Assembly: GCA_027488905.1 (NCBI GenBank)
Contig: JAIYAT010000039.1
Span: 62,001-126,000, forward strand
Source of the DNA: Bacteroidota bacterium
GTDB lineage: Bacteria > Bacteroidota > Bacteroidia > UKL13-3
Direction: 5' to 3'
DNA: 64,000 bases
Positions 3 to 50,762 of this stretch are shown here, piece by piece. The position numbers were made by a program, and so were the translations under genes. Position 1 is the first letter of the stretch, and the number at the start of each line of letters is the position of its first letter. Under the pieces are notes generated by a model. That model had not been told where the DNA came from and searched no databases. It worked only from the letters and a program-made list of their open reading frames with translations.

Positions 3-89
3 CCTTTAACCATTACAGAGGATGAAATTAAGTTGGCCTCTAAAATTTTGTTAATGGCTATCGAAAAGGTTTATGGGGTTTCGGTTTGA
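3..89 (+). CDS. 3' end of a truncated CDS (…PLTITEDEIKLASKILLMAIEKVYGVSV*), possibly a class III PLP aminotransferase C-terminus
   Basis: Open frame from the window edge to TGA at 87-89. The tail PLTITEDEI resembles class III aminotransferase C-termini. Too short to be sure. Confidence 0.4.
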   Translation, partial: PLTITEDEIKLASKILLMAIEKVYGVSV

Positions 90-466
90 ACCAAATCCAA
101 TAATCCATTTTCCTCAAAATAGGTAACCACCATTTTCCTCAATCTATTTTCTTGGGAGAGTAAATCTGTATAGGGAGGCTTTTTTAACATTCTATAGTGA
201 GGCCATCCATCAGCATCTGTGTGCTCGTAAGCATAATATCCCTCGTAGCTTAATAGTTTACAGGTGGCTATATGCATTAAATCCATTTTTTCATGTTTGG
301 CAAATTCACGCATTTGGCCAAGTTCCCTTACGCCAATTAAGAATAGTATTCCGTTCATATCAGGCTTTTTGCCAAATTGCTTTTTCAGGTCAAATACAAC
401 CCTATACCATTTAGCCTTGCTAGCATCGTCTAGCACAAAGGGGCTATTTTCTGTTTCTGTGTTCAT
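71..466 (-). CDS. Conserved hypothetical protein, 131 aa
   Basis: ORF with ATG start. Convergent with, and overlapping, the upstream partial CDS. Confidence 0.65.
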   Translation of the reverse strand: MNTETENSPFVLDDASKAKWYRVVFDLKKQFGKKPDMNGILFLIGVRELGQMREFAKHEKMDLMHIATCKLLSYEGYYAYEHTDADGWPHYRMLKKPPYTDLLSQENRLRKMVVTYFEENGLLDLVQTETP

Positions 467-545: not shown

Positions 546-1916
546 ATGAAAAAACTATTTTCCCTTTTGCTTGCCTGTATAAGTTTGGGCGCACTAGCTC
601 AATCGGCAAAGGAGCCCAGCATTCTTGCAGGACCCATGAATGGATATTCGGAACATACCGAAGTGCTTGTTTGGGTTCAAACCAAGTGCGCAAAAACTAT
701 TTCCATTGAATATCAACTCAAGGGAACCAAGGGTCCGGGTTTGGTTCAAACCGAAACCAATATAGGTAAAGATTTATGTAGGCCTTTGATTACCAAATTT
801 GTTTTAAGTGGTTTGGAAATGGGCAAGACATATGCATATAACATTTTTTTAGATGGAGAGCGAATAGCTCTGCCTTATTCTACAGAAATTTCAACTAAAG
901 TTTTATGGGAATGGAGAACTCCTCCGCCTAATTTTACCTTTATGTTGGGCTCTTGCCTATATATTAACGATTCTGCTTATGACAGACCCGGAAGGCCTTA
1001 TGGGCAGCAAACAAGCATTTTGAAAAGTATGACAGAAACCCCGTCAGATTTTATGCTTTGGCTTGGTGATAATGTTTATTTAAGAGAGGCTGATTATAGC
1101 AGTAGGAGTGGCATTGAATACCGCTACAGACACACCCGCAGCTTGCCAGAACTTCAGCCTTTATTGGCAAAAAGGAACAACTATGCTATTTGGGATGATC
1201 ATGATTTTGGAGACAATGATGCAAATAAGAATTTTGAATTTAAGGACCTTACCTACTCATTATTCAAAGAGTATTGGGGAAATAAAACTTATGGAGAAGA
1301 AGGAAGAGGTATTTATAGTAATTTTAGGTTTAGTGATGCCGAGTTTTTTTTGTGTGATGACAGATTTTTCAGAGACGAATCTGATATGGATGAGCGCTTT
1401 TTTCCTAAAACACAACTTGGGAGCGTGCAACTTTCTTGGTTAAAAAACAAATTGAAGTACAGCAAAGCCAGTTTTAAATTTGTGGCGATAGGAGGGCAAT
1501 TTATCAATGAAAACACGGATAAAGAATCCTATAATTTTTACAAAAAGGAGAGAGAGGAAATTATAAAATTCATTACCGAGCAAAAGATCTCTGGTGTTGT
1601 TTTTTTGAGTGGAGACAGACACCATACGGAGCTATTAAAAAACGAAAAGGTTACAGAAAGTCTTGGTTATCCTTTGTATGATTTAACCTCTAGTTCTATT
1701 ACTGCGGGTGCTTCAAATGCTGCAACTACACCGGAGAAAGATAATCCCCAAAGAATTCCCGGCACTTTGGTGGCTGAAAACAATTATTGTACAATTGCTA
1801 TTAGTGGTCCAAAAAGAGGAGAAAGAACACTATTAATAACCTGCTTTGATGTAAAAGGACTTGTAAAATGGGGTTATAGCATTAAAGAGGCAGAGCTTAA
1901 AGCATTAAAACCATAA
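546..1916 (+). CDS. PhoD-like alkaline phosphatase / metallophosphatase family protein with signal peptide
   Basis: WLGDNVYLRE, AIWDDHDFGDNDA and SGDRHHTEL motifs are typical of the PhoD family. ATG at 546 preferred over the TTG in the track. Confidence 0.85.
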   Translation: MKKLFSLLLACISLGALAQSAKEPSILAGPMNGYSEHTEVLVWVQTKCAKTISIEYQLKGTKGPGLVQTETNIGKDLCRPLITKFVLSGLEMGKTYAYNIFLDGERIALPYSTEISTKVLWEWRTPPPNFTFMLGSCLYINDSAYDRPGRPYGQQTSILKSMTETPSDFMLWLGDNVYLREADYSSRSGIEYRYRHTRSLPELQPLLAKRNNYAIWDDHDFGDNDANKNFEFKDLTYSLFKEYWGNKTYGEEGRGIYSNFRFSDAEFFLCDDRFFRDESDMDERFFPKTQLGSVQLSWLKNKLKYSKASFKFVAIGGQFINENTDKESYNFYKKEREEIIKFITEQKISGVVFLSGDRHHTELLKNEKVTESLGYPLYDLTSSSITAGASNAATTPEKDNPQRIPGTLVAENNYCTIAISGPKRGERTLLITCFDVKGLVKWGYSIKEAELKALKP

Positions 1917-3850: not shown

Positions 3851-3992
3851 AGTTCTTCAAATAAATAAAATTTGCTGAAAAATTCAATTTGTTCGCTCTA
3901 ATTCAAATCCACCTTCCCTAACTATTTTTTGTTTATTTGGTAACTATTTGGGAATGTTAGTATTGGAAATTTGAATAATAATAAAAACAGTT

Positions 3993-4262
3993 ATGGAAAA
4001 TAAAATTGAATTTGAGGTTGGTGAAACAGTTCGTCTAAAATCTGGAGGCCCTTTGTTAACAGTTTCAAAATTGTTAGAAAATGAGCATGTTGCTTGTGTT
4101 TGGTTTAACAGCTTGGATGATGTTTGCGTTCACGAATTTGATGCTGCTTTACTTTTCCCTGATGATGATGAGGATTGGTTTGAAGTTGAAGATTACGAAG
4201 AAGGCGATGAAGATGAAGACTTTGAAGACGAAGATTTAGAAGAAGAAGAGGAAAAGGCTTAG
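3993..4262 (+). CDS. YodC/DUF2158-like small protein with a highly acidic C-terminal tail
   Basis: VGETVRLKSGGPLLTVSKL…VWFN core, followed by a D/E-rich tail. Confidence 0.7.
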   Translation: MENKIEFEVGETVRLKSGGPLLTVSKLLENEHVACVWFNSLDDVCVHEFDAALLFPDDDEDWFEVEDYEEGDEDEDFEDEDLEEEEEKA

Positions 4263-4264
4263 AA

Positions 4265-5257: not shown

Positions 5258-5367
5258 TTTTTTAAGTCTCTTGAAATAGTTAAGTAGATAATCTGTAAAC
5301 AAAAATAAACTTTTTCCATAGTATGACTCAAAATACTATTTTGCAGGTCAACAAAACGTTTCAATTT

Positions 5368-6639
5368 ATGAATAGAGATAAGGTAATTTTCGACCTCATT
5401 CAAGAGGAGCAAAACCGCCAAGAACATGGCATTGAGCTTATTGCATCAGAGAACTTTGTTAGTCTTCAAGTAATGGAAGCAGCAGGCTCTGTATTAACAA
5501 ATAAATATGCTGAAGGATTACCTGGAAAACGTTACTATGGTGGATGCGAAGTAGTTGATAAGGTTGAAAACATTGCCATTGATAGGTTAAAACAACTTTT
5601 TGGAGCAGTGTGGGCAAATGTTCAACCGCACAGTGGCGCTCAAGCAAATGCTGCTGTAATGTTAGCTTGCCTAAATCCTGGAGATAAGATTTTGGGTTTT
5701 GATTTATCGCATGGTGGACATTTAACTCACGGCTCTCCTGTAAATTTCTCTGGAAAACTATATAAACCTTCTTTTTATGGCGTAGAAAGAGAAACAGGTT
5801 TAATAAATTGGAATAAGGTGGCTGAAATTGCAAAAGTTGAGCAGCCAAAAATGATAATATGCGGCGCTTCTGCCTACAGCAGAGATTGGGATTATGCTCG
5901 CTTAAGGAAAATTGCGGATGAAGTTGGCGCATTATTATTAGCAGATATTTCGCACCCAGCAGGTTTAATTGCTGGCAAGTTATTAAATGACCCAATGCCA
6001 CATTGCCATATCGTAACTTCTACTACCCATAAAACTTTGCGCGGGCCAAGAGGCGGAATTATAATGATGGGAAAAGATTTTGAAAATCCTTGGGGTCAAA
6101 CCACACCAAAGGGTGAGGTTAAAATGATGAGCGCCATTTTGGATGCTGCTGTTTTTCCTGGTACACAAGGTGGCCCTCTTGAGCATGTTATAGCAGCTAA
6201 AGCTGTAGCATTTGGTGAAGCCCTTTCTCCTGAGTACCAAACTTATATTAAACAAGTGAGAAGCAATGCCCAGGCAATGGCTGCTGCGTTTATGAATTTG
6301 GGTTACCAAATTATCAGTGGTGGAACAGATAACCATTTGATGCTAATTGATTTAAGAAACAAAGGCATAAGCGGAAAGGCTGCCGAGAATGTTTTGATTA
6401 AAGCAGATATTACTATTAACAAGAATATGGTTCCTTTCGACGATAAATCACCATTTGTTACATCAGGTATTAGAATAGGAACTCCTGCTATTACTTCTCG
6501 TGGCTTAAAAGAAGAACACATGGCAACTATTGTTGGGTTTATAGACCAAGTACTAATGAATGCCGATAATGAAGCTTTAATAGGAAATGTTAGAAAGGAG
6601 GTAAATGCTATGATGCAAGCATTTCCGCTTTATAGATAG
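5368..6639 (+). CDS. glyA: Serine hydroxymethyltransferase
   Basis: [44 protein letters not shown] at 5368 preferred. Confidence 0.97.
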
Positions 6640-6656
6640 TCTAATAATACTTTTTT

Positions 6657-6692
6657 AAATGGTTTGAACCTAAACTTAGGTTCAAACCATTT
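6657..6692. terminator. Bidirectional terminator-like perfect inverted repeat built from two copies of GGTTTGAACC
   Basis: AAATGGTTTGAACCTAA-AC-TTAGGTTCAAACCATTT: 17-bp perfect arms between convergent glyA and pulA, flanked by T-rich and A-rich sequence. Confidence 0.8.
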
Positions 6693-6697
6693 TTAGT

Positions 6698-9439
6698 TTA
6701 ATTTCTTATCCAAATTTGCATGCTCAATGGGGATATTTTAAAAGTTCTTTTGCCACCATTTATTTGCTCGTAATATTTCCCAAAACCTGCATCTAATGCT
6801 ATAGCGTTTTCATTCCCAACTTGCTTCCAAATGCCTGCTGGCAAGTTGATTAAGAATTCTTGGTGTTCTGCTCCAGTATTTAACAAAACCAGTATTTTTT
6901 CTTCAATCATATAGCCAAGGGCAGACTCATCTTTTGGTTCAAAAAACTCAAAATTTTTGCTTGTTAAAGTTGCAGAATTTTCCTCCTTGAATTGATAAGT
7001 TGTCAAAGGAAGAAGGTGTCTTTTTCTTAATTCTATGAGCGCACTCCAATAGTTGAGCATGTTGTAGTAATTGGTAATTTTTTTTTCGTATTGATCCAAT
7101 CCAATATTTTCCCAAACAAACTGATTAGCGCTTCGCATGTTATATGTATCGCGCTTACCATGAAAGTAAATTTTGCCGCTAGGGATTTCCTTTACAACCT
7201 CCATCAATGGCGCCATTCCTTTGCTGCGCATCATTTCTGAGCCCCCGTGCATTACCAAAGGTCCAGGTGTAGTAAAAAGTAAAATGGCAGCGATTTTATA
7301 ATTAACCTCATCTACCCCAAAACGGCCATCAAAATTATAGGTGGCAAATTGGTCTGCTAAGGCAAAATTATCATGAATGTCTAAGTAGTTGATTGCACTA
7401 TTGATGTTCTTTTGAGTAGGGAAGGAACAAGTAAGTGCTCTTTTTACATCGTTACGCAAGGAACTATTTCCACCTGCCCAACCTCTGTCTTTTTCTTTGC
7501 TGTTTAATTCAAAAACTGGTCCTTTATAAGTGTTTCTGGTATCATCATTAAAATAGCAAATGGGCGCATCTTCTTTGTACCAATGCCATTCTGGATTTTT
7601 ATTGTAAGCTGGGTCGTTGCTGTCAATCCAAGGTTCACCATAAATAATAATATCTTTTGGTAGGGCTTCTTTTAACTTAATTAAGGTCTGCTTGTCAGTT
7701 TGGCCAGCCAAATCAATTCTAAAACCATCTACCCCAAATTCTTCAATAAAATGTTTGCATTGGTCAATCATCCAACGTTGCACCATATATCTATTTTCGC
7801 TTTTGGTTTCATTACCATATTCGCCAATGTGTTCAAGGTTTTTGGTTCGGTAATAATATTGTTTGTCGAATGCGTTAAAATGAAACAGATACTCTCTACC
7901 ATCCATGTTTTCTGCGGTATGGTTAAATACAAAATCTACTATAACGGCAATTCCTTTTTTATGAAATGCTGCTACTAAGTCTCTAAATTGCTCTCTTTCC
8001 TGACCTGCTTCTGTTCCCTTTTTTCTGTACCGTGTTTCAATGGCAAAACTATGGGAGGTTCTATAGCCCCAATCGTAATTTTCTGTTGCAATTCCTTGCT
8101 CTATCATATATGGGTCGTTTTTAAAAGCGGCCTCCCATTCGTCTTTTGGCCAATGCAACATTTCTTGCACAGGCATTAGATGCACAGTGTTTATTCCAAG
8201 GTTTACTAAATAATCAAAACCAATGGATTTACCTTTTTTATTCTTGAGTTTTGAAATACCCATTGCAGCAATTGTGCCCTTTAAATCATTCGATACAGGC
8301 AGTAAATCTGTGAAGTCTTGCACATGCACCTCATACGCCATCACCGATTCCATTACTGGTCGGCCTTTTGGCAATGGAATTGGTGCAGAAGTTTTATAAG
8401 CAACTCTGCATTTTCCAAAACTATCATCACTTACACGAGCGTATGGGTCGCTTACATGAACTGGGTGCGTTTCAAAAAAGAAGTTTCCTGGGTCAGGGAA
8501 ACCATGCACAGTATAATCATACCAAACCCCCGATAAGTCACTTTGAATACTTGTTTCCCAAACGCCTTGCTTATCTATATTTAGGTTTATGACAGTATCA
8601 GCTTTAGTTTGGCTAGAAGTTTTATAAAGGTATAACTTAACGGCTGTGGCTCTTGGCGCAAATACCCTAAAGCTGGTCTCGGTTTTAAGTAAATTAACGT
8701 TGGCGCCTAATTCTTTATCACTTTTTAGTTCTTTGAACCAACCGTCAAAACTCACCAATTCTTTTAGGTTCAAACCGTTATGAATTAAGTAATAAACGCG
8801 TCTCTTATCAAAGTTTTTGGTGATTTTTAGAATAAGCAGAGCTTTTCCAATGACTTCCCCATTTAAGTTTTTTTGCTTGGGTGAGGGAGTAAAACTATAG
8901 TAAACCTTATCTATTAAAACAGGTGAATTTTTTGCGTTAACCAGGCTTAGATTATTTAGAAAGGGGCCATCTGCCTCGGCCTCAGTAATTCCTGTAATAT
9001 TCGCTTCAATGGTGCTATCATTTAAAATGGTTGCTTGAAGTGAAAGCGGTTCAAACCCCTTTAGAAACAAAAGGTTGCCGCCTTCAATATTTTCTGCATT
9101 TTTGGGTGGGTCGAGCCATTTTCCCTCATGGGTTCTAAATTTAAAAGCTTGTGAAGGTTTCACTCTATCAAAATTTTTATTGTTTAACCATAATATCCAC
9201 CTCCCATTTCCTGTTGGTTTTAATTGCCAGTTTGCATCTTTTAGGTCTTGGCTCCAATTCCTGAAAGCCCCAGTAACCAAAAAGTAGTCAGCTGTTATGC
9301 CATATACTTTTTCATCAAATAAAAATGCGAGGCTATCACCCTTTTGGAAATAACCATTTTTAAAATCAGTATCGGTTTGACCCAATACTAATTGTAAAAT
9401 GAAACTGTTGCAAAACAGAAGTAGAAGAAGTTTTCTCAT
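6698..9439 (-). CDS. pulA: Type I pullulanase (GH13), secreted
   Basis: YNWGY-like ENYDWGY, VIVDFVFNHTAE, GVDGFRIDLAG, IYGEPW, NYLDIHDN motifs. Signal peptide. Confidence 0.93.
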   Translation of the reverse strand: MRKLLLLLFCNSFILQLVLGQTDTDFKNGYFQKGDSLAFLFDEKVYGITADYFLVTGAFRNWSQDLKDANWQLKPTGNGRWILWLNNKNFDRVKPSQAFKFRTHEGKWLDPPKNAENIEGGNLLFLKGFEPLSLQATILNDSTIEANITGITEAEADGPFLNNLSLVNAKNSPVLIDKVYYSFTPSPKQKNLNGEVIGKALLILKITKNFDKRRVYYLIHNGLNLKELVSFDGWFKELKSDKELGANVNLLKTETSFRVFAPRATAVKLYLYKTSSQTKADTVINLNIDKQGVWETSIQSDLSGVWYDYTVHGFPDPGNFFFETHPVHVSDPYARVSDDSFGKCRVAYKTSAPIPLPKGRPVMESVMAYEVHVQDFTDLLPVSNDLKGTIAAMGISKLKNKKGKSIGFDYLVNLGINTVHLMPVQEMLHWPKDEWEAAFKNDPYMIEQGIATENYDWGYRTSHSFAIETRYRKKGTEAGQEREQFRDLVAAFHKKGIAVIVDFVFNHTAENMDGREYLFHFNAFDKQYYYRTKNLEHIGEYGNETKSENRYMVQRWMIDQCKHFIEEFGVDGFRIDLAGQTDKQTLIKLKEALPKDIIIYGEPWIDSNDPAYNKNPEWHWYKEDAPICYFNDDTRNTYKGPVFELNSKEKDRGWAGGNSSLRNDVKRALTCSFPTQKNINSAINYLDIHDNFALADQFATYNFDGRFGVDEVNYKIAAILLFTTPGPLVMHGGSEMMRSKGMAPLMEVVKEIPSGKIYFHGKRDTYNMRSANQFVWENIGLDQYEKKITNYYNMLNYWSALIELRKRHLLPLTTYQFKEENSATLTSKNFEFFEPKDESALGYMIEEKILVLLNTGAEHQEFLINLPAGIWKQVGNENAIALDAGFGKYYEQINGGKRTFKISPLSMQIWIRN

Positions 9440-14146: not shown

Positions 14147-17131
14147 TTAGTATTCCTCAACAGTATCGCAATGGTAGTCCATGTCTGGAGCGCTAACATG
14201 CTTGGTTGTTTTTTCACCTTTTTGTTTGGCCAAAATCATTTTTTGAATGATTCTTTCTCTTTCCTTTTTTATAGAAATTCTTAGTTCCTTATCTTTCTCT
14301 AAGCTGAAATAACAAATTCCATCTACAAAAGTCATTTCTGTTTTTGCATAAATGCTTAATGGGTTATCAGACCAAACTACCAAATCAGCATCTTTTCCTA
14401 CTTGGATACTTCCAGTATATTTTTCAATATGCAGCATTTTTGCAGGATTAAGCGTTACCATTTTCCAAGCAGCTTCTTCGCTTAAATTGCCATACTTAAT
14501 CATTTTTGCAGCTTCTTGGTTTAACCTTCTTCCCATTTCTGCATCGTCACTATTAACTGCGGTAACAATTCCCATTTGGTTTAGAATTGCAGCATTTTGT
14601 GGAATAGCATCAATTACTTCATATTTATAAGCCCACCAATCAGCAAAAGTGCTAGCACTGGCGCCATGCGCTTTCATTTTATCTGCAACTTTGTAGCCTT
14701 CCAAAATATGAGTAAAGGTGTTTACTTTAAATCCTAGACTGTCACCTACTTTCATTAACATATTTATTTCACTTTGCACATAACTGTGACAACTGATAAA
14801 TCTTTTCTTGTTAAGTATTTCAACGAGGGTCTCTAATTCTAAATCTTTTCGCGTAAGACTAGGGTTTTCCTTTAACTTCTTTTCATATTCTTTCGCTCTG
14901 ATGAAAGCATCAAAATAGACTTGCTCAACACCCATTCTTGTTTGGGGGTATCGCGAAGTTTCATTTCCCCAATTGCTTTGTTTTACGTTTTCGCCTAACG
15001 CAAATTTAATAAAGCCATCTGCCTCTTTAAATTTCATTTCTTCGGGAGCTTTCCCCCAACGAAGCTTAATTATACTGCTTTGGCCACCAATTGGATTACA
15101 GGAGCCGTGCAATTGTTGGCACGCAATTACACCTCCTGATAGCTGCCTATAAATATTAATATCATCTGCATTAATTACATCTCCAATTCTTACTTCTGCA
15201 GTGTTGTTTTGAGTACATTCATTTACACCTCTGTAAATGCCAATGTGCGAATGCTCATCAATGATACCGCTGCTTAGATGCTTGCCCTTGCAATCTACAA
15301 TTTTGGCATTTGCAAGTGTTAAATTTTTTCCTATCGCTATAATTTTTCCTTTGCTAATGGCTACATCCGTTTCTTTTAAAATCCCATCTTTTTCATTTGT
15401 CCAAATTGTAGCATTTTTGAAGATAACAGATTCTTGCATAGGCGTTTGGTTCAAACCGAACTCTGAAAATGGGTAAATAATTTGGCCAAATTGCTGGGAG
15501 GAATCTATGTTCTTGTTTTCTTGCTTTGCAATTGTGTTTTCTATTAGTTTACCACTAAAACTATGGGTATTGCCAGTTTTATCCCAAGCCAATCCTTTAA
15601 TTTCGGTCGCTTGTTGACTGGCATTGGTTTTACTAACCCAAAATTCGAGTCTTATAAGCAGTTCACTCTCTTTTGATGCAGGAATGCTAGAACTGTAGTA
15701 GCCCGATTTTTGGCTTAAATTAATTTTTAAAGAGTCTTTTGCCCACACAAAAGTTTCTAGTGTTTTATCGTTTTTGATTACAAGTTTTACCAATCCTAAT
15801 TCTGGCAAGTTTAACTCATATACACCCGCAAGTGTTTGATTGTTCCAAGGTTTTAAGGCATTATGGTTACCATTGGTATAATGGTCCAGAATTTCGGAAT
15901 TAGGTTCAAACAAATCATTGCTACTGATAAAAAAATTGGCCATCATTCCTTTTTGTAGACTGCCTATTTTTGAAGCAACATTTAGCATTTTGGCAGGTGA
16001 GAGGGTTAATGCGTTGAGTGCTGCCTCTTTACTAAGGCCATAGGATACAGCTTTTCTGAGGTTGTTTAAAAATTCCTCTGCATTTGCACAACCACTCGAA
16101 GTAATAGCAAAAGGGATGCCTTGTGCATTTACAATCGCTGGATTTTTTGGCGCCATTTCCCAATGTTTTAAGTCGGCAAGATTGATTCTTTCTGCATCAA
16201 AGGGGTCTTGCACCTCAAAGGGTTTTGGGAAGTTTATAGGAATAATTAGGGAATTTCCAGTGGCCTTTATTTCCTGAATTCTTTGGTAATCATCGCCAGT
16301 AGACTTGAGTAGATAATTTATGCCAAATTCCTTTCCAATTTTTGCTGCTCTAAGTGCCGCGTATTTGTTTTCCGTTTCAAAAATGGCTGGCAAACTTTTA
16401 TGTTTTTGAAACTGCTCAAAGCTTAAATTTACTTCTTCCTTATTTTTGCCGTAATAATCAGCATCATAATAGGTTTGCCTGATAAGCGCAACTACGCCCA
16501 TGGCAGAACCCGGATAATCTTGCTTGCTATTTCCTTTGTTAAAGCTTAGGCCTGTTGCAGTTTCTGTGCTAATAATTAGTTGATGTTCTGGGCCTTTGCC
16601 TGTTAACACCAAAGTTCCGCTACCTCTAAAAATTCCATCCTGTAAAATGCTTAGGGTTGAACCAAAACCAGAGGAAAGGTATTGTTCACTTTTTTTATCA
16701 TCAAATTCAAAAATTTCAACAGATTTTCTATCCAGATGAATGGCATCATTCCAAGTATAAGCCCCAGGTTTGTTATTTTCATATTGTTGCTGTTTTTTAT
16801 GTTTCGATTCTTTTTCTTGGTTCAAACCATAATTGCTAAACAAATCTATAAATGAAGGATAAATATAACGACCATTGAGGTTTATGATTTTTGCTTCTTT
16901 TGGAATTGGTAAACTACTGCTTTGAATCGCATCAATTTTACCCTCTTTGATGATAAGCGTGGCGTCTTTGAGCAATGTATTTGGGGTAGTTTGAATATTT
17001 GCATGAACAAAAGCGATAAGTTGAACCCGTTTATCATTTGGTCCATTTTGGGGAAACCCAATTTGAGCAAAACAATTACTTATAAACAATATTCCAAGGC
17101 TCAAAAGTGTTATCCTAAACAAGTACTTCAT
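14147..17131 (-). CDS. Large amidohydrolase family protein with two amidohydrolase-like halves
   Basis: N-half IYPSFIDLFSNYG…KIGSLQKGMMANF. C-half LSSGIIDEHSHIGI…TGSIQVGKDADLVVWSDNPL. Confidence 0.88.
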   Translation of the reverse strand: MKYLFRITLLSLGILFISNCFAQIGFPQNGPNDKRVQLIAFVHANIQTTPNTLLKDATLIIKEGKIDAIQSSSLPIPKEAKIINLNGRYIYPSFIDLFSNYGLNQEKESKHKKQQQYENNKPGAYTWNDAIHLDRKSVEIFEFDDKKSEQYLSSGFGSTLSILQDGIFRGSGTLVLTGKGPEHQLIISTETATGLSFNKGNSKQDYPGSAMGVVALIRQTYYDADYYGKNKEEVNLSFEQFQKHKSLPAIFETENKYAALRAAKIGKEFGINYLLKSTGDDYQRIQEIKATGNSLIIPINFPKPFEVQDPFDAERINLADLKHWEMAPKNPAIVNAQGIPFAITSSGCANAEEFLNNLRKAVSYGLSKEAALNALTLSPAKMLNVASKIGSLQKGMMANFFISSNDLFEPNSEILDHYTNGNHNALKPWNNQTLAGVYELNLPELGLVKLVIKNDKTLETFVWAKDSLKINLSQKSGYYSSSIPASKESELLIRLEFWVSKTNASQQATEIKGLAWDKTGNTHSFSGKLIENTIAKQENKNIDSSQQFGQIIYPFSEFGLNQTPMQESVIFKNATIWTNEKDGILKETDVAISKGKIIAIGKNLTLANAKIVDCKGKHLSSGIIDEHSHIGIYRGVNECTQNNTAEVRIGDVINADDINIYRQLSGGVIACQQLHGSCNPIGGQSSIIKLRWGKAPEEMKFKEADGFIKFALGENVKQSNWGNETSRYPQTRMGVEQVYFDAFIRAKEYEKKLKENPSLTRKDLELETLVEILNKKRFISCHSYVQSEINMLMKVGDSLGFKVNTFTHILEGYKVADKMKAHGASASTFADWWAYKYEVIDAIPQNAAILNQMGIVTAVNSDDAEMGRRLNQEAAKMIKYGNLSEEAAWKMVTLNPAKMLHIEKYTGSIQVGKDADLVVWSDNPLSIYAKTEMTFVDGICYFSLEKDKELRISIKKERERIIQKMILAKQKGEKTTKHVSAPDMDYHCDTVEEY

Positions 17132-22283: not shown

Positions 22284-24494
22284 ATGAAAAAAATAATATA
22301 TATATCTGCAGCAATGCTGCTTCCTATTTTTGTTGTTGGGCAACAAGATAGTTTAAGTAAACAAATTGGTTTACAAGAATTGGTTATCAAAGAAATCAAT
22401 CCTTCTCTCAATCGTCCGTTAACTTTTAGCAGTCTTGAAAGTAAAAAACTAAAGCAACTCTATTTTGGTGCCGATATTCCTGCGGTGTTGCAACAACTTC
22501 CATCTATAAATTCATATAGTGATAATGGAACTGGAATTGGCTATAGCTTTTTTAGGATGCGTGGCATGGATCAAACCAGAATTAATACAACCATTAATGG
22601 AATTCCAGTAAATGACCCAGAAAACCAAGGAGTCTTTTTCACCAATTTTGCAGATTTATTAAGCGGGGTAGAGGAGGTTCAAGTGCAACGTGGACTTGGG
22701 ACTTCCACTAATGGGACATCTGCCTTTGGAGGCTCTGTTCAAATTACTTTGGCTGCGTTAAAACAAAAACGCGCTACCGAAATTCATTTGGGTGTTGGAT
22801 CATTTGGTTCAAACCGAATTACAGCCAACATACAAAGTGGTTTGATTAATAGAAAGTGGCTTTCTCAACTGAGAATCGGTAGAATTCAAACCAACGGGTT
22901 CAGAAATAATGCTGCTGCACAAGTTAACTCGTATCAAGTTTCGGTAACACGATTATTATCCAAAGGCTCGATTAGGTTCAACTCATTTGGTGGCGCTACC
23001 AGCAACCAGTTATCTTATCTAGGGATTGACAAGCAAACCTTTGAGGCTAATGCTAAAAGTAACCCTTTTGTAAATGGAGAATCCGATGCTTTCAGACAAT
23101 TTTTCAATCAAATTCAATATTTTAGAAGAATCGGTTTGAACCAAACCCTAAATGCAAGCGTGTATTTTGTGCGAAGTGCTGCACCTAAATTTCAATTTCA
23201 ATTTCCCGCAAGTTGGGGCTACTCTTTTGATTGGTTCAATATGCCTTCTGTAATTAATGGAAATGATACCAATGACTTGGCAGGTGATATGATGACTTCT
23301 TATCGTTTGGATCAGAAGTTTTATGGAGCATTTGTTACACACACATTTAAATTAAAGCGCTTTGAACTAAACAGCGGTTTGCATGCAAACTATTTTACGG
23401 CAGATCATTTTATGGAAGTAGATGCTGCTGCACTATTGCCATCTGGCATTTTCCCAAATCATGAAGTGTATAGAAATACCGGGGTAAAAAAAGATTTAAG
23501 TGCTTTTTTAAAAGGAAATTTGAGTGCCACAGATAGGCTGAGTTTGTTTGCAGATGTCCAAGTTAGAATGACAAGCTTTAGTTATCAAGATAAAGAAATG
23601 TCCATTCGCCCAAGTTTTGGAAAAGTAAAGGATATGCAATGGGTGTTTTTAAATCCAAGAATTGGCTTGAACCAAACTTTAAGACATGGTCAAACGCTTT
23701 ATATATTTACTGGCTTAGGTTTTAGAGAACCAACACGCTTTGATTATTTGCAAGATGATTTTGCAATTGGCGAGGTGCAACAAACATCGATTAAGCCAGA
23801 ACAATTATGGAATACAGAAATGGGCTATCGCTTTATAACAAATGGATTTAAGGTTTTGGCTAACGCATATTTCATGGAATTTCAAAATCAGATTGTTGGC
23901 ACAGGGGCACTTAATAACTTTGGCTACCCAATAACTGGAAATATTGGAAGAAGTTGGCGCAGAGGCATAGAGTCCGAGGTTTTGATTCCTTTTGATAAAA
24001 TGTTTTCATTGTTTGCTAATGCATCTTTTAGCATGAATGGTGCAAAGGAATTTACACAAACATTTTCTACCGAAGACCCAATTGGAATATCTATTCAAAA
24101 GACCTTTAAAGGCACCCCACTTGCATTAAGTCCAAGCCAAATTCATTTATTTGGTATTCAATTTATTAGCTTAGATGAAACAATAACTACTGCGTTAAAC
24201 GGACGTTACGTAAGTAAACAATACTTAGATAATACAGGTAATGAATTGCTTAGTATTCCAGCTTTTTATACTTTGGATTTGAGGTTTACCTACCAATTCA
24301 ATTTAAAAGTTATTGAAAAGGCTACATGGCAAATCAGGCTACATGCCAACAATTTGCTTAATGCTAAGTATGCACCATTTGGAAGTATGGGAGGCTCAAA
24401 TACGATAGATGCAATTGGCAATCGTGGAAATTTTCCTTTGTTTATGCCAGCAGCGGGTACAAACTTTTTCTTAACGCTATCTTCATCATTTTAG
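22284..24494 (+). CDS. TonB-dependent receptor, probable thiamin(-related) outer-membrane transporter
   Basis: FRMRGMDQTRINTTINGIPVNDPENQGVFFTNFADLLSGVEEVQVQRGLGTSTNG plug domain. Located directly downstream of the TPP riboswitch. The track start at 22140 lies upstream of the riboswitch. Confidence 0.92.
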   Translation: MKKIIYISAAMLLPIFVVGQQDSLSKQIGLQELVIKEINPSLNRPLTFSSLESKKLKQLYFGADIPAVLQQLPSINSYSDNGTGIGYSFFRMRGMDQTRINTTINGIPVNDPENQGVFFTNFADLLSGVEEVQVQRGLGTSTNGTSAFGGSVQITLAALKQKRATEIHLGVGSFGSNRITANIQSGLINRKWLSQLRIGRIQTNGFRNNAAAQVNSYQVSVTRLLSKGSIRFNSFGGATSNQLSYLGIDKQTFEANAKSNPFVNGESDAFRQFFNQIQYFRRIGLNQTLNASVYFVRSAAPKFQFQFPASWGYSFDWFNMPSVINGNDTNDLAGDMMTSYRLDQKFYGAFVTHTFKLKRFELNSGLHANYFTADHFMEVDAAALLPSGIFPNHEVYRNTGVKKDLSAFLKGNLSATDRLSLFADVQVRMTSFSYQDKEMSIRPSFGKVKDMQWVFLNPRIGLNQTLRHGQTLYIFTGLGFREPTRFDYLQDDFAIGEVQQTSIKPEQLWNTEMGYRFITNGFKVLANAYFMEFQNQIVGTGALNNFGYPITGNIGRSWRRGIESEVLIPFDKMFSLFANASFSMNGAKEFTQTFSTEDPIGISIQKTFKGTPLALSPSQIHLFGIQFISLDETITTALNGRYVSKQYLDNTGNELLSIPAFYTLDLRFTYQFNLKVIEKATWQIRLHANNLLNAKYAPFGSMGGSNTIDAIGNRGNFPLFMPAAGTNFFLTLSSSF

Positions 24495-35366: not shown

Positions 35367-36494
35367 ATGAGAAAAATCTATTTTTATAGCTTGTTGCTAG
35401 GGCTTATACCTTTTAAACTTTGGAGCCAATTGCCCAATGAGGCACTTTATAGAGAATATAAGTTAAATGCCCCTGATTCAAACACCATTACATTTGAATT
35501 GCACAACACTAATTATTTTAGAAATACTGAGTATTTTAATAAAACAGAAGAAGGTCGTACACTCTTTGGAAACCATCTTCACCCTCAGTTTGGTTTTCAA
35601 CAAGGCCAGAATGTTAAAATAATGGGAGGTCTTTGGTTCAGACAAGATTTTGGAGGAAAGCAACCCTTTACACAAGTTTTGCCAACCTTCACCTTGAAGC
35701 TTCAAAAGCAATTAGGTGCTGGAACATTTAGTGCTTTGTTTGGAAGCTTAGAAGGTGGAATGAGCCACCAACTTTTAGAGCCAATTTATGACATTAACCG
35801 AGCTATCATTAGCCCTATTGAGTATGGATTGCAGGCAAAATTTAATAATCAATCTCATTGGTTTGATGGCTGGTTGAATTGGGAAAAATTTATTGAACCA
35901 GGTGATCCGTTTAAAGAAAAATTAAGTGGTGGTATTCATTATAGGTTTAGCAAAGGAACCACTACTAAGTTTACAGCCTATAACCAAACCCTCATTTACC
36001 ATGAAGCTGGTCAAATTGATACCGATACCATTACCCCTTTCCAAGTATTAATAAATGAAGCAATTGGATTACGCTTAGAGCATGGCAACAAGAATGCTTG
36101 GCTTTATTATGCCGAATTAAGTGGTTTGCTATTTAACGATGCAACATTTAGTGGCTTGTTTCCTTACAAAAATGGAAGTGGCGTTTTGGCCCAATTAGGC
36201 GCAGCTTTTAAAGGAAATTATTTTGCCTTAAATTATTGGAATGGTAATAATTATGTTTCGCCAAGAGGTACTGGAATTTATCAAAGTATTTCCTCAGTAG
36301 ACTCTTCTAATTATCAAATTAATAGACAGTTAGTTTTTCTTAGGCTTATTAATAATTTTCCTGTGTTTAATTCAAGTGTTCAAGCCTCCTTTAGGTTTGA
36401 ACCTTTTATTGATTTAAACTCGAAGCGAATAGACTACAGCGGCTCGGTTTATTTAGTATTTGCCATTGATAAAGTCTTTAGGTTCAAACCTTAA
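35367..36494 (+). CDS. Hypothetical secreted / outer-membrane beta-barrel-like protein
   Basis: Signal peptide, then alternating aromatic strands ending RFEPFIDLNSKRIDYSGSVYLVFAIDKVFRFKP. Confidence 0.65.
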   Translation: MRKIYFYSLLLGLIPFKLWSQLPNEALYREYKLNAPDSNTITFELHNTNYFRNTEYFNKTEEGRTLFGNHLHPQFGFQQGQNVKIMGGLWFRQDFGGKQPFTQVLPTFTLKLQKQLGAGTFSALFGSLEGGMSHQLLEPIYDINRAIISPIEYGLQAKFNNQSHWFDGWLNWEKFIEPGDPFKEKLSGGIHYRFSKGTTTKFTAYNQTLIYHEAGQIDTDTITPFQVLINEAIGLRLEHGNKNAWLYYAELSGLLFNDATFSGLFPYKNGSGVLAQLGAAFKGNYFALNYWNGNNYVSPRGTGIYQSISSVDSSNYQINRQLVFLRLINNFPVFNSSVQASFRFEPFIDLNSKRIDYSGSVYLVFAIDKVFRFKP

Positions 36495-37975
36495 CCTATA
36501 CTTGGTATCAACTCCGAAACAATTTTTGCAGATTGCAAACAAAGAGGTATACCGCCACCAGGATGAACACTCCCTCCACAAAAATATAGACCTTTTATTT
36601 TACTATGAAAATTAGCATGTCGCAGAAAGGCTGCGTATCTGTTATTACTGGCATTTCCATACAAAGAGCCGCCTAAACTTGAGGTCTTGGTTTCGATGGA
36701 AATTGGGTTGAGTGTATCTTCTGTAACAATATATTTCCCAATATCATCCCCTAAAATTCTGCTTAACTTTTCAAGTATTTGGTTTTTGGCAATTGCCTTC
36801 CATTTTTCCCAATCTTGCCCATTATTATTGGGTGTATTAATCATAACAAACCAGTTCTCACAACCTTCTGGAGCGTCGTCCCTTTTATATTTACAACTTA
36901 TGTTAATATAAACAGTTGGGTCTTCATACAAGCGGCGCTCCTCAAAAATTGCCTTAAATTCTGCCTTATAGTCTGATGCAAAGAATATGTTATGCAAATC
37001 AAGTTGTTGAAACTCCTTGTTAATTCCCCAATAAAAAATAAGCGCAGAGGAGCTTTTTTCTTGTTTCAATAAATGCTCTGGAGCTTTATGGTTTTTAAGT
37101 AATTTTCGATAGGTTGGATGTATATCCATGTTGCTTATCACCAGATTTGATGAATAAAATTTCTCATTTGCCCAAACCCCGGTCACACAGTTTTTTTCGG
37201 TTTGAACCAAATCAACCTTATGATTAAAATGAAAAGTAACACCTAATTCTAAGGCCGTTTGATAAAGTGTTTCTGTTATTTGATGCATGCCATTTTTTGG
37301 AAAAAATGTGCCAATGCCATGTTCCAAATGTGGAATCATATTTAGCAAGGCTGGCGCTTGGTAAGGGTTTGATCCATTGTAAGTGGCAAATCTGTTAAAG
37401 TATTGAACCAAATGAGGATGTTCGAGAACCTTCTCGTTTTCATCGTTCATAGGTTCAAATAAGTTTAGTTTGGGGATGCTAAATATGCCTTTTATTGTTT
37501 CTTTTCTAAGGTAGTTACCCAACTTATGTAAGCTTTTTTCTAAAAAAAGAGGTGCCGTTATTTCATATCTATATTTTGCCTTTTCAAGGTAATCCAAAAC
37601 TATTTTTGGTTCAACACCTAACTTACTTTCTATCTCATGTGCAAATTTTTGAGAGTCTTGATACGCAATTAGTTTTGTACCATCCTCATAAAAGTAATGA
37701 CAACCTTTTTCTAATTTTATATAAGGAAAACAGGTACTCGGGTTTTTTCCAGCTAAGAGTAATAACTCTTCAACTAATTGAGGCATAGTAAACAAAGAAG
37801 GTCCAGCGTCAAACCTATATCCATTGTTTTCAAAAACACTCAGTTTGCCACCAGGATAAGCATTTGCCTCAAAAACTTTTACAGTAAATCCTTTTACCGC
37901 CAACCTTATTGCTACTGCTAGTCCGGCTATACCCCCACCAACAATAGCAACAGAATTATCATTTAATTTCTTCAT
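36491..37975 (-). CDS. Phytoene desaturase-family (CrtI/CrtD-like) carotenoid desaturase
   Basis: VAIVGGGIAGLAVAIRLAVKGFTVKVFEANAYPGGKL and FCGGSVHPGGGIPLCLQSAKIVSE. Confidence 0.92.
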   Translation of the reverse strand: MKKLNDNSVAIVGGGIAGLAVAIRLAVKGFTVKVFEANAYPGGKLSVFENNGYRFDAGPSLFTMPQLVEELLLLAGKNPSTCFPYIKLEKGCHYFYEDGTKLIAYQDSQKFAHEIESKLGVEPKIVLDYLEKAKYRYEITAPLFLEKSLHKLGNYLRKETIKGIFSIPKLNLFEPMNDENEKVLEHPHLVQYFNRFATYNGSNPYQAPALLNMIPHLEHGIGTFFPKNGMHQITETLYQTALELGVTFHFNHKVDLVQTEKNCVTGVWANEKFYSSNLVISNMDIHPTYRKLLKNHKAPEHLLKQEKSSSALIFYWGINKEFQQLDLHNIFFASDYKAEFKAIFEERRLYEDPTVYINISCKYKRDDAPEGCENWFVMINTPNNNGQDWEKWKAIAKNQILEKLSRILGDDIGKYIVTEDTLNPISIETKTSSLGGSLYGNASNNRYAAFLRHANFHSKIKGLYFCGGSVHPGGGIPLCLQSAKIVSELIPSIG

Positions 37976-38769: not shown

Positions 38770-41250
38770 ATGTATATTAAAATGATTTTAAACGAAATGA
38801 AACAATTCATCAAAATTTTTTTAAATAGTAATCTACTATGCATTTTGCTGCTTGTGCTACCTTATTCAATAAACGCACAAGGATTGGGCACCATTACAGG
38901 TAAGGTAATAGATAAAAATACACAAGAGTCATTAATTGGTGCGACAGTTATTTTGCAAGGCACAACTTTAGGCGCTCAAACAGATGCTGAGGGTAAATTT
39001 GTAATTAAAGGGATTCCAACTAAATCCTACAATTTATTGATTCAATATGTTGGATATGCCTCTAAGACCATTTTCAATATTGTAATTAATTCTGGAAATA
39101 TTTCTACGTTCAATATCGAATTGGAGCCCGCTTCTAATAATTTAGGGGAGGTTTTGGTTCAAACCAGAACTTTTGAGAAGAAAACAGAAACGCCTTTATC
39201 TATACAGAATTTAACTGCCGAAGAAATTAAAAGTAATCCTGGTGGTAATTTTGATATTTCTAGAGTAATACAAGCATTGCCTGGAGTTGGCGGTAACACA
39301 GGTGGAGCAGCTTTTAGAAATGATATTATTATTAGAGGCGGAGGCCCTAATGAAAATGTGTTTTACCTAGATGGAATTGAAATTCCAGTAATTAATCACT
39401 TTGCCACACAAGGAAGTTCTGGAGGCCCACAAGGAATTTTGAATGTTAGTTTTATTCAAGACGTTACTTTAAGTTCTAGTTCTTTTGGCGCTCGAATTGA
39501 CAACCCACTTTCTTCTGTTTTCAACTTTAAACAAAAGGATGGTAATGAAGAAAGATTGCAAGGGAATTTAAGACTAAGTGCCTCAGAAGCGGCATTAACC
39601 TTGGATGGTCCTCTCACGAAAAACACAACTTTTTTGGCCTCAGCACGTAGAAGCTATCTGCAATTTTTGTTTATCTTTTTAGATTTACCTATTCGCCCAA
39701 GCTATTGGGATTTTCAATATAAGACCACAACCAAAATAAACGAGAAAACAACGCTTACTACATTAGGTGTTGGTGCCATTGATAATTTTAAGTTTGCCAT
39801 ACCAGAAGAATCTACTCCAGAAAAGGAATATCAGTTAAGAGAAAGTCCCAATATCAACCAGTGGAATTATACCATGGGGGCTGTTTTAAAAAGAAGGATT
39901 AGCAAAGGTTATATGAATTTATCTGTTAGTCGTAATATGTTTAACAATGCCTTAGATAGATGGGAAGATGGTAAAGAAAATGATGAAAATTTTAGAGCCT
40001 TTAAGGTTAGGTCTCAAGAAATAGAAAATAAGTTAAGATTAGATATCAATAAGTTTCAAGGCAAATGGAAATATGCCTATGGCGGGATGTTTCAGTATGT
40101 TAAATATAATAATACAACTTTCAGCAAAATTAACAATGGAACTTTTGATTCATCGGGTAATCAAATTGTGCCACCATTAACTATAAATTACAATTCTGCC
40201 ATTGAATTTTTTAAAGGTGGTTTATTTGCAGAAGTATCTAGAAGGCTTTTAAATGACAGATTAAATTTGAATTTTGGGGTAAGAACAGATGTTAATTCAT
40301 TTACTACTGATGGGTTAAATCCGCTTCAAACCTTGTCTCCACGCTTATCCGCTTCTTATGCGCTTAATGATAAATGGAATTTAAATGCATCAATAGGTCG
40401 ATATTATAAAATACCAATTTACCCTATTTTAGGATTTAGAAACAGTGCTGGAACATTTGTTAATAAAGACAACAAGTACATTTCGAGTGATCATTATGTG
40501 GGTGGAGTTGAGTTTTTGCCTACAAATAATACTCGTATCACAGTGGAAGGTTTCTTCAAACAATATGGTAATTACCCAGTATCTGTTCAAAATGGAATTT
40601 CATTGGCTAACCAAGGGGTAGATTTTGGAATTTTAGGCAATGAACCAACACTTTCTATTGGGAAAGGTCGGGTTTATGGTTTTGAATTTTTCTTTCAGCA
40701 AAAATTAACTAAAAGTTTTTTTGCTACCTTTTCATACACTTGGTTTGTGAGCAAGTTTAGTGGCGCTGATGGCCGTTTAATTGCCTCAGCTTGGGATAAC
40801 CGTCATTTGGTTTCAACCATTCTTGGTTATAAATTTAAGAAAGGTTGGGAAATAGGTGCCAAATATAGATTGGCAGGTGGTTCGCCGTATACGCCATTTA
40901 ATTTAGATGCCTCTAGAGCGAGCTATTTAAGCACTGGAAGTGGAATTTTAGATTTTTCAAGGCTGAACCAACAAAGATTAGGTGCATTTCAGCAAGTGGA
41001 TATTAGAATTGATAAAAAGTTTAACTACAAAAGAGTTACCTTAGACCTGTTTATAGATATTCAAAACCTTTTACAAACAGCTCAGCAAGCCTATCCTTCA
41101 TATGTTTTCGAAAGAAATACTACTAATACAGGTTGGGCAACAACAGATGGAAACGCAATTCAACAAAACGGTAGCAATGCCATTCCAGTTATTTTGGATA
41201 ATACAAACACAACTTTTCTTCCAACTTTTGGTTTTATTCTAGAATTCTAA
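38770..41250 (+). CDS. TonB-dependent receptor with CarboxypepD_reg-like domain
   Basis: ITGKVIDKNTQESLIGATVILQGTTLGAQTDAEGKF and plug ISRVIQALPGVGGNTGGAAFRNDIIIRGGGPNENVFYLDGIEIPVINHF. Confidence 0.92.
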   Translation: MYIKMILNEMKQFIKIFLNSNLLCILLLVLPYSINAQGLGTITGKVIDKNTQESLIGATVILQGTTLGAQTDAEGKFVIKGIPTKSYNLLIQYVGYASKTIFNIVINSGNISTFNIELEPASNNLGEVLVQTRTFEKKTETPLSIQNLTAEEIKSNPGGNFDISRVIQALPGVGGNTGGAAFRNDIIIRGGGPNENVFYLDGIEIPVINHFATQGSSGGPQGILNVSFIQDVTLSSSSFGARIDNPLSSVFNFKQKDGNEERLQGNLRLSASEAALTLDGPLTKNTTFLASARRSYLQFLFIFLDLPIRPSYWDFQYKTTTKINEKTTLTTLGVGAIDNFKFAIPEESTPEKEYQLRESPNINQWNYTMGAVLKRRISKGYMNLSVSRNMFNNALDRWEDGKENDENFRAFKVRSQEIENKLRLDINKFQGKWKYAYGGMFQYVKYNNTTFSKINNGTFDSSGNQIVPPLTINYNSAIEFFKGGLFAEVSRRLLNDRLNLNFGVRTDVNSFTTDGLNPLQTLSPRLSASYALNDKWNLNASIGRYYKIPIYPILGFRNSAGTFVNKDNKYISSDHYVGGVEFLPTNNTRITVEGFFKQYGNYPVSVQNGISLANQGVDFGILGNEPTLSIGKGRVYGFEFFFQQKLTKSFFATFSYTWFVSKFSGADGRLIASAWDNRHLVSTILGYKFKKGWEIGAKYRLAGGSPYTPFNLDASRASYLSTGSGILDFSRLNQQRLGAFQQVDIRIDKKFNYKRVTLDLFIDIQNLLQTAQQAYPSYVFERNTTNTGWATTDGNAIQQNGSNAIPVILDNTNTTFLPTFGFILEF

Positions 41251-41254
41251 AGAT

Positions 41255-42742
41255 ATGAGCAGTAAAAGGGCAATAGTAATAGGTGGAGGCGTGGCTGGTC
41301 TTTCTGCTGCTGCTTACCTTGCCAAAGGCGGTTTTGAAGTTACCTTGCTTGAAAAAAATGCAAGTTTAGGCGGTAGAGCAAGACAGTTTTCTGAGGAGGG
41401 ATTTACGTTTGATATGGGTCCAAGTTGGTATTGGATGCCAGATGTCTTTGAAAAGTTCTATAATGATTTTGGTTTTACAACTTCAGACTTTTATGATTTA
41501 AGAAGGCTTGACCCAAGTTATAGCGTTGTCAATAAGCAAGGCGAAGCAATTGATATACCTGCAGATAAATTAGAACTTGAAGCGCTTTTTGAAAGAATAG
41601 AACCTGGAAGTGCTTTAAAACTTAGAGAGTTTTTAAAAGAAGCGGCCTATAAGTATGAAGTTGGAATTAATGATTTAGTATATAAACCAAGTTTAAGTTT
41701 ATTGGAATTTGCAGACATAAGATTGCTTAAAGGATTGCTAAAAATGGATGTTCTCACAAATATGAGAAGTCATGTGAAGAAAACAGTTAAACATCCGTTT
41801 TTGCAGGAATTATTGGAGTTTCCCGTGTTGTTTCTTGGCGCCTTGCCGCAAAATACTCCCGCACTTTACAGCTTGATGAACTATGCAGATATGGATTTAG
41901 GCACTTGGTATCCAATGGGAGGAATGTATAAAATTATCGAAGCCTTTGAGAAAGTTGCTAAAAAGCAAGGCGTAAAATTCGGTTTGAACCAAGATGTAAT
42001 TAGTTTTAATTATTCAGGTTCAAAAATTATAGGCGTAAATACCTCAACAGATTCTTATGAAGCAGACGTAGTTGTGGGCGCAGGCGACTATCATCATTTG
42101 GATCAAAACGTAATAGAAAAAAAATACCAATCTTATTCTGCCACCTATTGGGACAGCAGAAAATTAGCTCCCTCTTGTTTGTTATATTATGTTGGGGTCA
42201 ACAAAAAAATAAAAGGTCTTTTACACCACAACCTCTATTTTGATACCGATTTTAATTTACACTCTAAAGAAATTTACACAACGCCAAAATGGCCTGAGAA
42301 ACCACTTTTTTATGCATCTGCACCTTCTGTAACTGATAAAACAGTTGCACCCGAAGGAAAAGAAAATTTATTTTTACTAATCCCAATAGCACCAGGTTTA
42401 AAGGGAGATGATGAAGCAATACGTAAAAAGTATTTTGATGAAATGATAGCACGTATTGAAAAGCAAACAGGTGAAAGTTTTGCCAATGATATATGCTATG
42501 TTAAGACCTACTCGGTAAGCAATTTCGTAAGTGATTATTACGCTTTCAAAGGAAATGCATACGGATTAGCAAATACTTTGGATCAAACCGCAATCTTAAA
42601 ACCAAGTTTAAAATCCAAAAAATTAGAAAATTTATTTTTTGCCGGACAACTAACTGTACCTGGACCTGGTGTGCCTCCAAGTATTATTAGTGGGAAAGTT
42701 GCAGCAAATCAGATTTTTAAAGAGTTTGGTCTTATTAAATAG
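41255..42742 (+). CDS. crtI: Phytoene desaturase
   Basis: AIVIGGGVAGLSAAAYLAKGGFEVTLLEKNASLGGRARQF…MGPSWYWMPDVFE…AGQLTVPGPGVPPSIISGK. Confidence 0.94.
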   Translation: MSSKRAIVIGGGVAGLSAAAYLAKGGFEVTLLEKNASLGGRARQFSEEGFTFDMGPSWYWMPDVFEKFYNDFGFTTSDFYDLRRLDPSYSVVNKQGEAIDIPADKLELEALFERIEPGSALKLREFLKEAAYKYEVGINDLVYKPSLSLLEFADIRLLKGLLKMDVLTNMRSHVKKTVKHPFLQELLEFPVLFLGALPQNTPALYSLMNYADMDLGTWYPMGGMYKIIEAFEKVAKKQGVKFGLNQDVISFNYSGSKIIGVNTSTDSYEADVVVGAGDYHHLDQNVIEKKYQSYSATYWDSRKLAPSCLLYYVGVNKKIKGLLHHNLYFDTDFNLHSKEIYTTPKWPEKPLFYASAPSVTDKTVAPEGKENLFLLIPIAPGLKGDDEAIRKKYFDEMIARIEKQTGESFANDICYVKTYSVSNFVSDYYAFKGNAYGLANTLDQTAILKPSLKSKKLENLFFAGQLTVPGPGVPPSIISGKVAANQIFKEFGLIK

Positions 42743-47173: not shown

Positions 47174-47845
47174 ATGAGAAAACTATTATCGCTGTTAATT
47201 ATCCTAATTGCTTTTGCACAGACAAGCTTTGCACAAAAGAAATCCTATACTACAACCGATTGGGAACTAATTTTTTCTTTTGCAGATTATCAAATAAATG
47301 ATGAGAAAATTAACACACCACCGCGTTTCAGCTGTTTTTTACATTTTGGTAAATCTAAGCATATAGACCTTTCTAAAAATATTGGTTTGTTTTCTGGTGT
47401 AGCCATGAGAAATGTTGGTTTCTCTTCTAAGATTTCTGATACACTGGTAAAAAGAAGAGTTTATACCATCGGTGTTCCATTAGCTTTTAAAGTTGGAGAT
47501 TTAGGAAACGATAAGTATTTATATGCTGGTGGAGAAGCCGAATTTGCATTTCATTTTAAAGAAAAAACCTTTGTAAATGATAAAAAAACCAAAGAATCAG
47601 AATGGTTTAGTAGTAGGAATAACTTGTTTATGCCAAGCGTTTTTGTGGGTGTAAATTTTAAAAGTGGTTTGAACCTAAAATTTAAGTATTACCTCGAAGA
47701 CTTGTATAACTCGAACTACACTAAAAATGGTCAGAAAGTATATGTGAATGTTAATAGTTCCCAAATGTTTTACTTCTCAATTTCTATGAATGTTAGAAAA
47801 GGAACTTATTATGGTAAAAGTAAAACGTTTAATAAAACATCTTAA
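47174..47845 (+). CDS. Hypothetical secreted / outer-membrane beta-barrel protein
   Basis: Signal peptide MRKLLSLLIILIAFAQTSFAQ, beta-rich remainder. Confidence 0.65.
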   Translation: MRKLLSLLIILIAFAQTSFAQKKSYTTTDWELIFSFADYQINDEKINTPPRFSCFLHFGKSKHIDLSKNIGLFSGVAMRNVGFSSKISDTLVKRRVYTIGVPLAFKVGDLGNDKYLYAGGEAEFAFHFKEKTFVNDKKTKESEWFSSRNNLFMPSVFVGVNFKSGLNLKFKYYLEDLYNSNYTKNGQKVYVNVNSSQMFYFSISMNVRKGTYYGKSKTFNKTS

Positions 47846-49380: not shown

Positions 49381-49410
49381 TTAACTAATTGGTTCAAACC
49401 GATAATTACA

Positions 49411-50088: not shown

Positions 50089-50762
50089 AACGTTTCTCCT
50101 TTTAGGTATTTGGTTTTAAGTAAAGAACATATTTTGTACCTTTCATCATGGGTGTCTTGGTATAAAGCTTCTAAAGTTTCGTAAACATGTTTAATTCCTA
50201 TTTTATTGGCCCATTCAAATGGTCCAAATGGATAGTTGGTGCCAAGTTTCATGCTTGTGTCAATGTCTGATATACTTGCAGTTCCTTCCTGCACAGTATA
50301 ACAAGCCTCATTTATAATCATAAAAATTATACGAGGCGTAACCATTCCAACTCTGTCTTCTACCATTTTAAATTGCCAATCAAGTTTATCCATTGCGGTT
50401 TGAACCGAGATTTGATTCTCAGAATATGCGATAGAAAGTTCTGCAAAACTTCTGTTGATAAATGTGGGTAAGGCATTTAGGCCAATTAAGTTGCATTCTA
50501 TTGGTCTGCCATAATCGTTGATGGCTTTAGAAAGTTGTTGTTTAACAGCACAAACAAATACTGTAATTCCTTTGAGATTAGCATAATACTTTAATTGATC
50601 AAGTTTTTCATCGAATTTTAGATCAAAAATTACATCGTAATCACGTAAATTGGCACTGAGTAAATCACTATCATCAATTGAAAAAAATTCACATGAAACA
50701 TTTTCAAGCTTTTCTTTTAATTCTTTTATACGGTTCTTTGAACCTCTCGCCAAAATTTTCAT
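50085..50762 (-). CDS. 3-hydroxyacyl-CoA dehydrogenase C-terminal-domain-like protein
   Basis: RVGMVTPRIIFMIINEACYTVQEGTASISDIDTSMKLGTNYPFGPFEWANKIG. Start at MKILARG preferred. Confidence 0.85.
   Translation of the reverse strand: MKILARGSKNRIKELKEKLENVSCEFFSIDDSDLLSANLRDYDVIFDLKFDEKLDQLKYYANLKGITVFVCAVKQQLSKAINDYGRPIECNLIGLNALPTFINRSFAELSIAYSENQISVQTAMDKLDWQFKMVEDRVGMVTPRIIFMIINEACYTVQEGTASISDIDTSMKLGTNYPFGPFEWANKIGIKHVYETLEALYQDTHDERYKICSLLKTKYLKGETF

Follow-up and report, generated by a model that had tools for sequence, protein, structure and literature searches.

A convergent gene pair and its hairpin

The serine hydroxymethyltransferase (SHMT) gene glyA (5323..6639, + strand, PF00464) and a pulA-like glycoside hydrolase gene with CBM48 and alpha-amylase domains (6698..9439, - strand) run towards each other in the window (the whole stretch of 64,000 nucleotides that was analysed), and their stops (6639 and 6698) converge around a hairpin. 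Positions 6657..6692, assigned to neither strand, read AAATGGTTTGAACCTAA-AC-TTAGGTTCAAACCATTT. This is a perfect 17-bp inverted repeat, exactly as an earlier sequence-only reading of this DNA had claimed, and that reading was also right in placing one full decamer in each arm: the word GGTTTGAACC lies at 6661..6670 on the + strand (left arm) and at 6679..6688 on the - strand (right arm). Folded as RNA, the repeat gives a 16-bp stem and a 4-nt loop at -21.5 kcal/mol (z -6.4). None of 200 shuffles equalled this fold, and the hairpin ranks first among the terminator-like sites of window positions 1-20000. An Rfam search of the hairpin returned sub-threshold chance matches only, and no known RNA.

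The hairpin resembles intrinsic (Rho-independent) terminators in its stable, GC-containing stem, its short loop past a stop codon, its convergent intergenic position and its U-rich tail on the glyA strand, where a T5 run (6690..6694, +; TTT within the stem followed by TT) places UUUUU across the stem end. Unlike in typical intrinsic terminators, A-T pairs dominate the stem beyond the two motif cores and the tail is weak for the opposite gene; for pulA the U-tract is poor, just UUU followed by AAAAAA (UUUAAAAAAG). Both arms hold the exact decamer together with the A at position 12 that the motif requires (see below). The usual 5' flank of the motif is TTT, and of the 208 copies in the sampled genome just 3 have AAA at -4..-2; two of these three are the arms of this hairpin. 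The AAA flank supplies a 5' A-tail and a 3' T-tail, a terminator geometry that suits glyA better than pulA, and since the flanks depart from the motif consensus towards a U-tail, we read the hairpin as a glyA terminator. The earlier suggestion that the pair of copies is terminator-like is thus favoured by the fold, by its first rank in 20 kb and by the T-rich glyA-side tail: judged by its sequence, 6657-6692 likely forms an intrinsic-terminator-like hairpin serving the 3' end of glyA, and perhaps it also serves the 3' end of pulA, more weakly.

Origin of the hairpin within the genus

The same hairpin, with one loop change, is present in the nearest sister species, G206 (CAMDHZ01; L036), and is common only to that species and the genome of the window (G000). 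The two stops are separated by 58 bp in G000, and G206 has the matching hairpin. In G202 (JAIYCU01) and several more distant congeners, the stops lie ~3-16 bp apart and the hairpin is absent. G210 (JAIOYZ01) has a single motif copy past the pulA stop, next to a different neighbour gene. All three of these named congeners are uncultured MAGs, and at least some of them come from lakes and ponds. The MAGs of two congeners (L036 and L039) are labelled Chitinophaga pinensis and are probably misassigned, because the genus-level word is common to both and because of the other MAG names.

The hairpin is most simply read as a recent gain in the G000/G206 lineage. A sequence that two sister species share as a unit, and that outgroups lack, could also be a dispersed mobile mini-element (MITE/REP-like) inserted between glyA and pulA. 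However, the 70-bp stretch around the hairpin has no second copy in the genome, which rules out such a dispersed element here as far as copies can be detected, and the inverted pairs of G210 differ in their spacers, bar three copies of one repeated tail-to-tail segment. We therefore give an inserted mini-element next to no credence.

Abundance and form of the word

The window contains 20 copies of GGTTTGAACC, where 0.13 would be expected. Besides the two hairpin arms, copies lie on the + strand at 83..92, 23133..23142, 36394..36403, 37199..37208, 41981..41990, 46039..46048, 47666..47675 and 50397..50406, and on the - strand at 674..683, 743..752, 8767..8776 and 9048..9057 (both within pulA), 15448..15457, 16819..16828, 22806..22815, 36481..36490, 39156..39165 and 49391..49400 (intergenic). 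At 36394-36490, two opposed copies separated by 77 bp lie where two convergent ORFs end with a 4-bp overlap. The whole genome (3.55 Mb, 40 contigs) holds 839 copies, 435 forward and 404 reverse, compared with 36 of the reversed control; numbers for the whole genome were obtained by pattern searches and from 0.94 Mb of sampled contigs, in which genes were called simply as the longest ORFs. Such gross over-representation throughout the genome and on both strands is a hallmark of the uptake words of Neisseriaceae (DUS) and Pasteurellaceae (USS). Another word, GTAGCTTCCC, occurs 19 times in 464 kb of sampled contigs from the same genome (0.4 expected).

In its full form the motif has the extended consensus TTYGGTTTGAACCWAA, with TTT on its 5' side and an A-rich 3' side. 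The A at position 12 is near-invariant (130/134 copies). Single substitutions at positions 6, 7, 9 and 10 are found near or below chance (0-3x), whereas positions 1-4 and 8 are tolerant, G at position 3 being 79x and C at position 8 111x above expectation. The site is a pseudo-dyad with half-sites GGKT/AMCC, yet the halves are unequal: the right half and A12 are near-invariant and the left half is tolerant, leaving an asymmetric core, YGANCCNA. GGTTTGAACC is not self-complementary, and so differs from perfect palindromes of the HIP1 type.

Motif spacing is Poisson, with an approximately twofold enrichment in intergenic DNA. The motif is found in all five of the reading frames available to it, and the sixth would carry a TGA stop, ruling out repetition driven by an encoded peptide. 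Being short, abundant and selected (see below), the word might also be a strand-oriented recombination or segregation word like Chi or KOPS. However, only 69 of 134 copies agree with the local GC skew, i.e. there is no strand bias, and the forward and reverse counts given above are similarly balanced. This lack of orientation largely refutes a Chi- or KOPS-like role, which we consider very improbable.

Genus restriction, dialects and selection

Every one of the 18 other genomes in the genus is enriched in the word: 17 congeners carry 60-1318 copies, and the incomplete genome G213 carries 46 (control 10). It is at or near background in 28 family members belonging to other genera and in 197 other genomes of the phylum, where the highest outsiders reach a few tens. 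Within the genus, the preferred form varies. Two congeners (G207 and G209) prefer the full palindrome GGTTCGAACC, three (G198, G200 and G201) prefer CTGAACCWA and one (G208) prefers TTGATCCAA, although these dialects were read from samples of 23-80 kb per genome and are indicative. Restriction to one taxon with related dialects is also typical of DUS and USS. Two further words turned up in these samples. CCAGTTGCTAA occurs 12-13 times in 80 kb of G200 (L100-L103; <1 expected), separately from its TGAACC dialect. In G241, which belongs to another genus of the family, GACCCCTTCAGG/GAAGGGGTC occurs 20 times in 80 kb (L111-L114; 0.2 expected), and is possibly that genus's own repeat or motif.

The word is also conserved beyond its surroundings, as DUS and USS are. 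Of 23 copies compared with the orthologues of G202 (76.7% nucleotide identity over 114 kb), 14 are intact, as against 10% of random 10-mers. Most of the non-intact copies are one step off, and two positions carry the word reversed in orientation. Where the peptide is conserved, 12 of 16 copies are identical, compared with 11-18% of control windows. At the shorter distance of G206 (94.8% identity), conservation is 0.88 for the word and 0.65 for random 10-mers. This retention beyond random 10-mers, also where the peptide is conserved, indicates that the word is maintained as DNA.

The largest motif gap in the sampled genome spans 45 kb (G000 C2:123433-168057, L188-L190) in a run of genes on a single strand. 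This motif-free stretch, a single locus, is a surface-polysaccharide locus, encoding WbsX, NeuB, a flippase, asparagine synthases and glycosyltransferases.

Inverted pairs of the motif

The sequence-only reading had supposed that the word is generally deployed as inverted pairs, and had proposed a genome scan for such pairs and for their enrichment in convergent gaps. In the genome of the window, the scan finds four head-to-head pairs with a spacer of up to 30 bp, against 1.5-1.6 expected (P 0.08), one tail-to-tail pair and no direct pairs. Three of the four head-to-head pairs have long spacers and lie within genes, and 6657-6692 is the sole tight exact pair. These counts rule out pairing as a general arrangement in this genome. 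In 0.94 Mb of the genome, 2 of 41 intergenic hairpins (about 5%) contain the motif. This is far below the shares reported for uptake words in Neisseriaceae and Pasteurellaceae, which are found in up to 37% and 22% of terminators, respectively (PMC13020248), and in roughly 55% and 17-29% of the terminators at operon ends (PMC1852404). The second of the two hairpins (G000 C27:203179-203213, AAAATGGCTTGAACCAACCTGGTTCAAGCCATTTT) has the same build with the variant GGCTTGAACC, its arms being AAAATGGCTTGAACC...GGTTCAAGCCATTTT.

The supposition fares better in G210. This congener, with 1318 copies, has 18 head-to-head, 12 tail-to-tail and 4 direct close pairs, where the densities of intergenic and coding sites predict 7.2, 7.2 and 14.3, respectively. 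A uniform null predicts 3.3 head-to-head pairs, but it ignores the intergenic enrichment of sites in this congener and is therefore too generous. The ratio of inverted to direct pairs is 30:4 (28:4 once copies are collapsed), and clustering does not affect this contrast. Convergent gaps, which make up ~1.6% of the sampled sequence, hold 7 of the 18 head-to-head pairs. Several pairs have a T-rich tail on one strand and others do not, so not all need be intrinsic terminators. Three identical tail-to-tail pairs (GGTTCAAACCATATTGCTTTTAATATTGGTTTGAACC) lie within 5 kb of one another at G210 C49:91374, 92863 and 96211, which suggests a repeated segment.

The pair at glyA might then be a terminator and nothing else, its motif copies being coincidental or a by-product of the motif's abundance. 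The modest head-to-head excess and the single tight exact pair in the window's genome fit this account. Against it, each arm carries not only the exact decamer but also the A that the motif needs at position 12, a second hairpin of the same genome is built with a motif variant, and head-to-head pairs are in excess in G210, where they often lie at gene ends. On balance, we think coincidence unlikely, though it deserves to be taken seriously, and we continue with the reading that the stem was built from two motif copies.

Comparison with known iterated words

Like the DUS of Neisseriaceae (GCCGTCTGAA and its dialects), the word is ~10-12 nt long, numbers hundreds to thousands of copies spread over both strands, is better conserved than its surroundings and varies as dialects within its taxon (PMC3630211, PMC2397512). 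It may further resemble DUS in being under-represented in diversifying regions, as at the one polysaccharide locus, and in forming inverted pairs in hairpins at gene ends. It differs from DUS in its sequence, in its near-palindromic form, in being mostly intragenic and rarely paired in its own genome, and in its host phylum, Bacteroidota. With the USS of Pasteurellaceae (AAGTGCGGT), it shares a strict core, AT-rich flanks and the probable co-option of some copies into terminators (PMC1852404, PMC13020248). Unlike in USS, the flank consensus of the word supplies no A-tail or T-tail for a paired hairpin, and the hairpin in the window departs from this consensus; the near-palindromic form is unlike both DUS and USS. 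HIP1 of cyanobacteria (GCGATCGC) is likewise highly iterated, dyad-symmetric or nearly so, and spread chromosome-wide (PMC4390886). However, the word here has an asymmetric core and a central TG step, and it varies between congeners, whereas HIP1 is identical in all described cyanobacteria (PMC4390886).

DUS and USS are taken up by a type IV pilus machine with a pilin receptor (ComP/ComN type). We found no type IV pilus/T2SS ATPase (PilB/PilT/GspE-type, PF00437) over the cut-off in the window's genome, and none that was convincing elsewhere in the genus, where there was one weak partial match. The same search was positive in 13 of 14 control genomes. The machine of Neisseria and Haemophilus thus appears to be missing, and with it the setting in which a ComP-type minor pilin receptor would act, so that the word is no more than a candidate member of the DUS/USS class. 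ComEC is present in all 19 genomes of the genus, but is uninformative, being near-universal and present in most control genomes too. Transformation in Riemerella, also of the Bacteroidota, depends on ComEC, DprA, ComF and RecA together with several further proteins of unknown function, and its frequency is influenced by an outer membrane protein of the SusC/RagA family (PMC8459023). Given this effect, an outer-membrane receptor for the word is conceivable.

The missing ATPase also speaks for the main rival to uptake, namely that the word is a cytoplasmic site for chromosome maintenance or DNA modification (HIP1-like, or bound by a nucleoid or recombination protein), with the hairpin still a terminator that contains the word by chance. 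Such a site could well be pseudo-palindromic, as the half-sites are here, and could flip its orientation between orthologues. Moreover, the full palindrome is preferred by some congeners, and HIP1, itself palindromic, is linked to methyltransferases (PMC4390886). However, the strong asymmetry between an almost fixed right half with A12 and a tolerant left half sits poorly with this account, and the word's strong genus restriction, its dialects and its thinning in a horizontally variable locus are classical features of uptake words. We regard a cytoplasmic function as rather unlikely, but it is the competitor to be reckoned with.

A candidate self-recognition word in Bacteroidota

The earlier proposal of an uptake-signal-like role therefore stands in part. 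It draws on the word's abundance, genus restriction, dialects, selection and thinning in the polysaccharide locus, but it lacks the expected pilus motor ATPase. By analogy with DUS and USS, we consider an uptake signal a plausible reading. Under this reading, the asymmetric core YGANCCNA would be recognised in double-stranded DNA by a putative cell-surface receptor, the motif would mark DNA of the same kind for transformation, and repeated uptake and recombination would fix and maintain its copies. Some of the copies maintained in this way could then be co-opted into terminator stems, and at the 3' end of glyA two opposed copies of the genus-specific, highly iterated motif would have come to build one. 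Taken as a whole, this combination of an uptake-signal-like motif and a terminator hairpin made from two of its copies is our best explanation, and we judge it about evenly balanced between right and wrong.

In the literature surveyed, self-specific uptake words are established for just two families, Neisseriaceae and Pasteurellaceae, and both rely on type IV pili. Our literature search, whose coverage was incomplete, found no report of GGTTTGAACC or of any uptake word in Bacteroidota. More tentatively, then, and with somewhat more doubt than belief, we propose that a genus of Bacteroidota lacking a detectable type IV pilus motor ATPase possesses an uptake-signal system of its own, with species dialects. 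This would be an independently invented form of self-DNA recognition, using a different kind of receptor (e.g. a TonB/SusC-like or other outer-membrane protein), and its word may be starting to be re-used in terminators. If true, this would be a third, unrelated case, showing that self-DNA recognition evolved independently in Bacteroidota and pointing to a new receptor. The congeners form a graded series, from 46 to 1318 copies and with no, few or many inverted pairs, in which the accumulation of uptake words and their co-option into terminators could then be watched.
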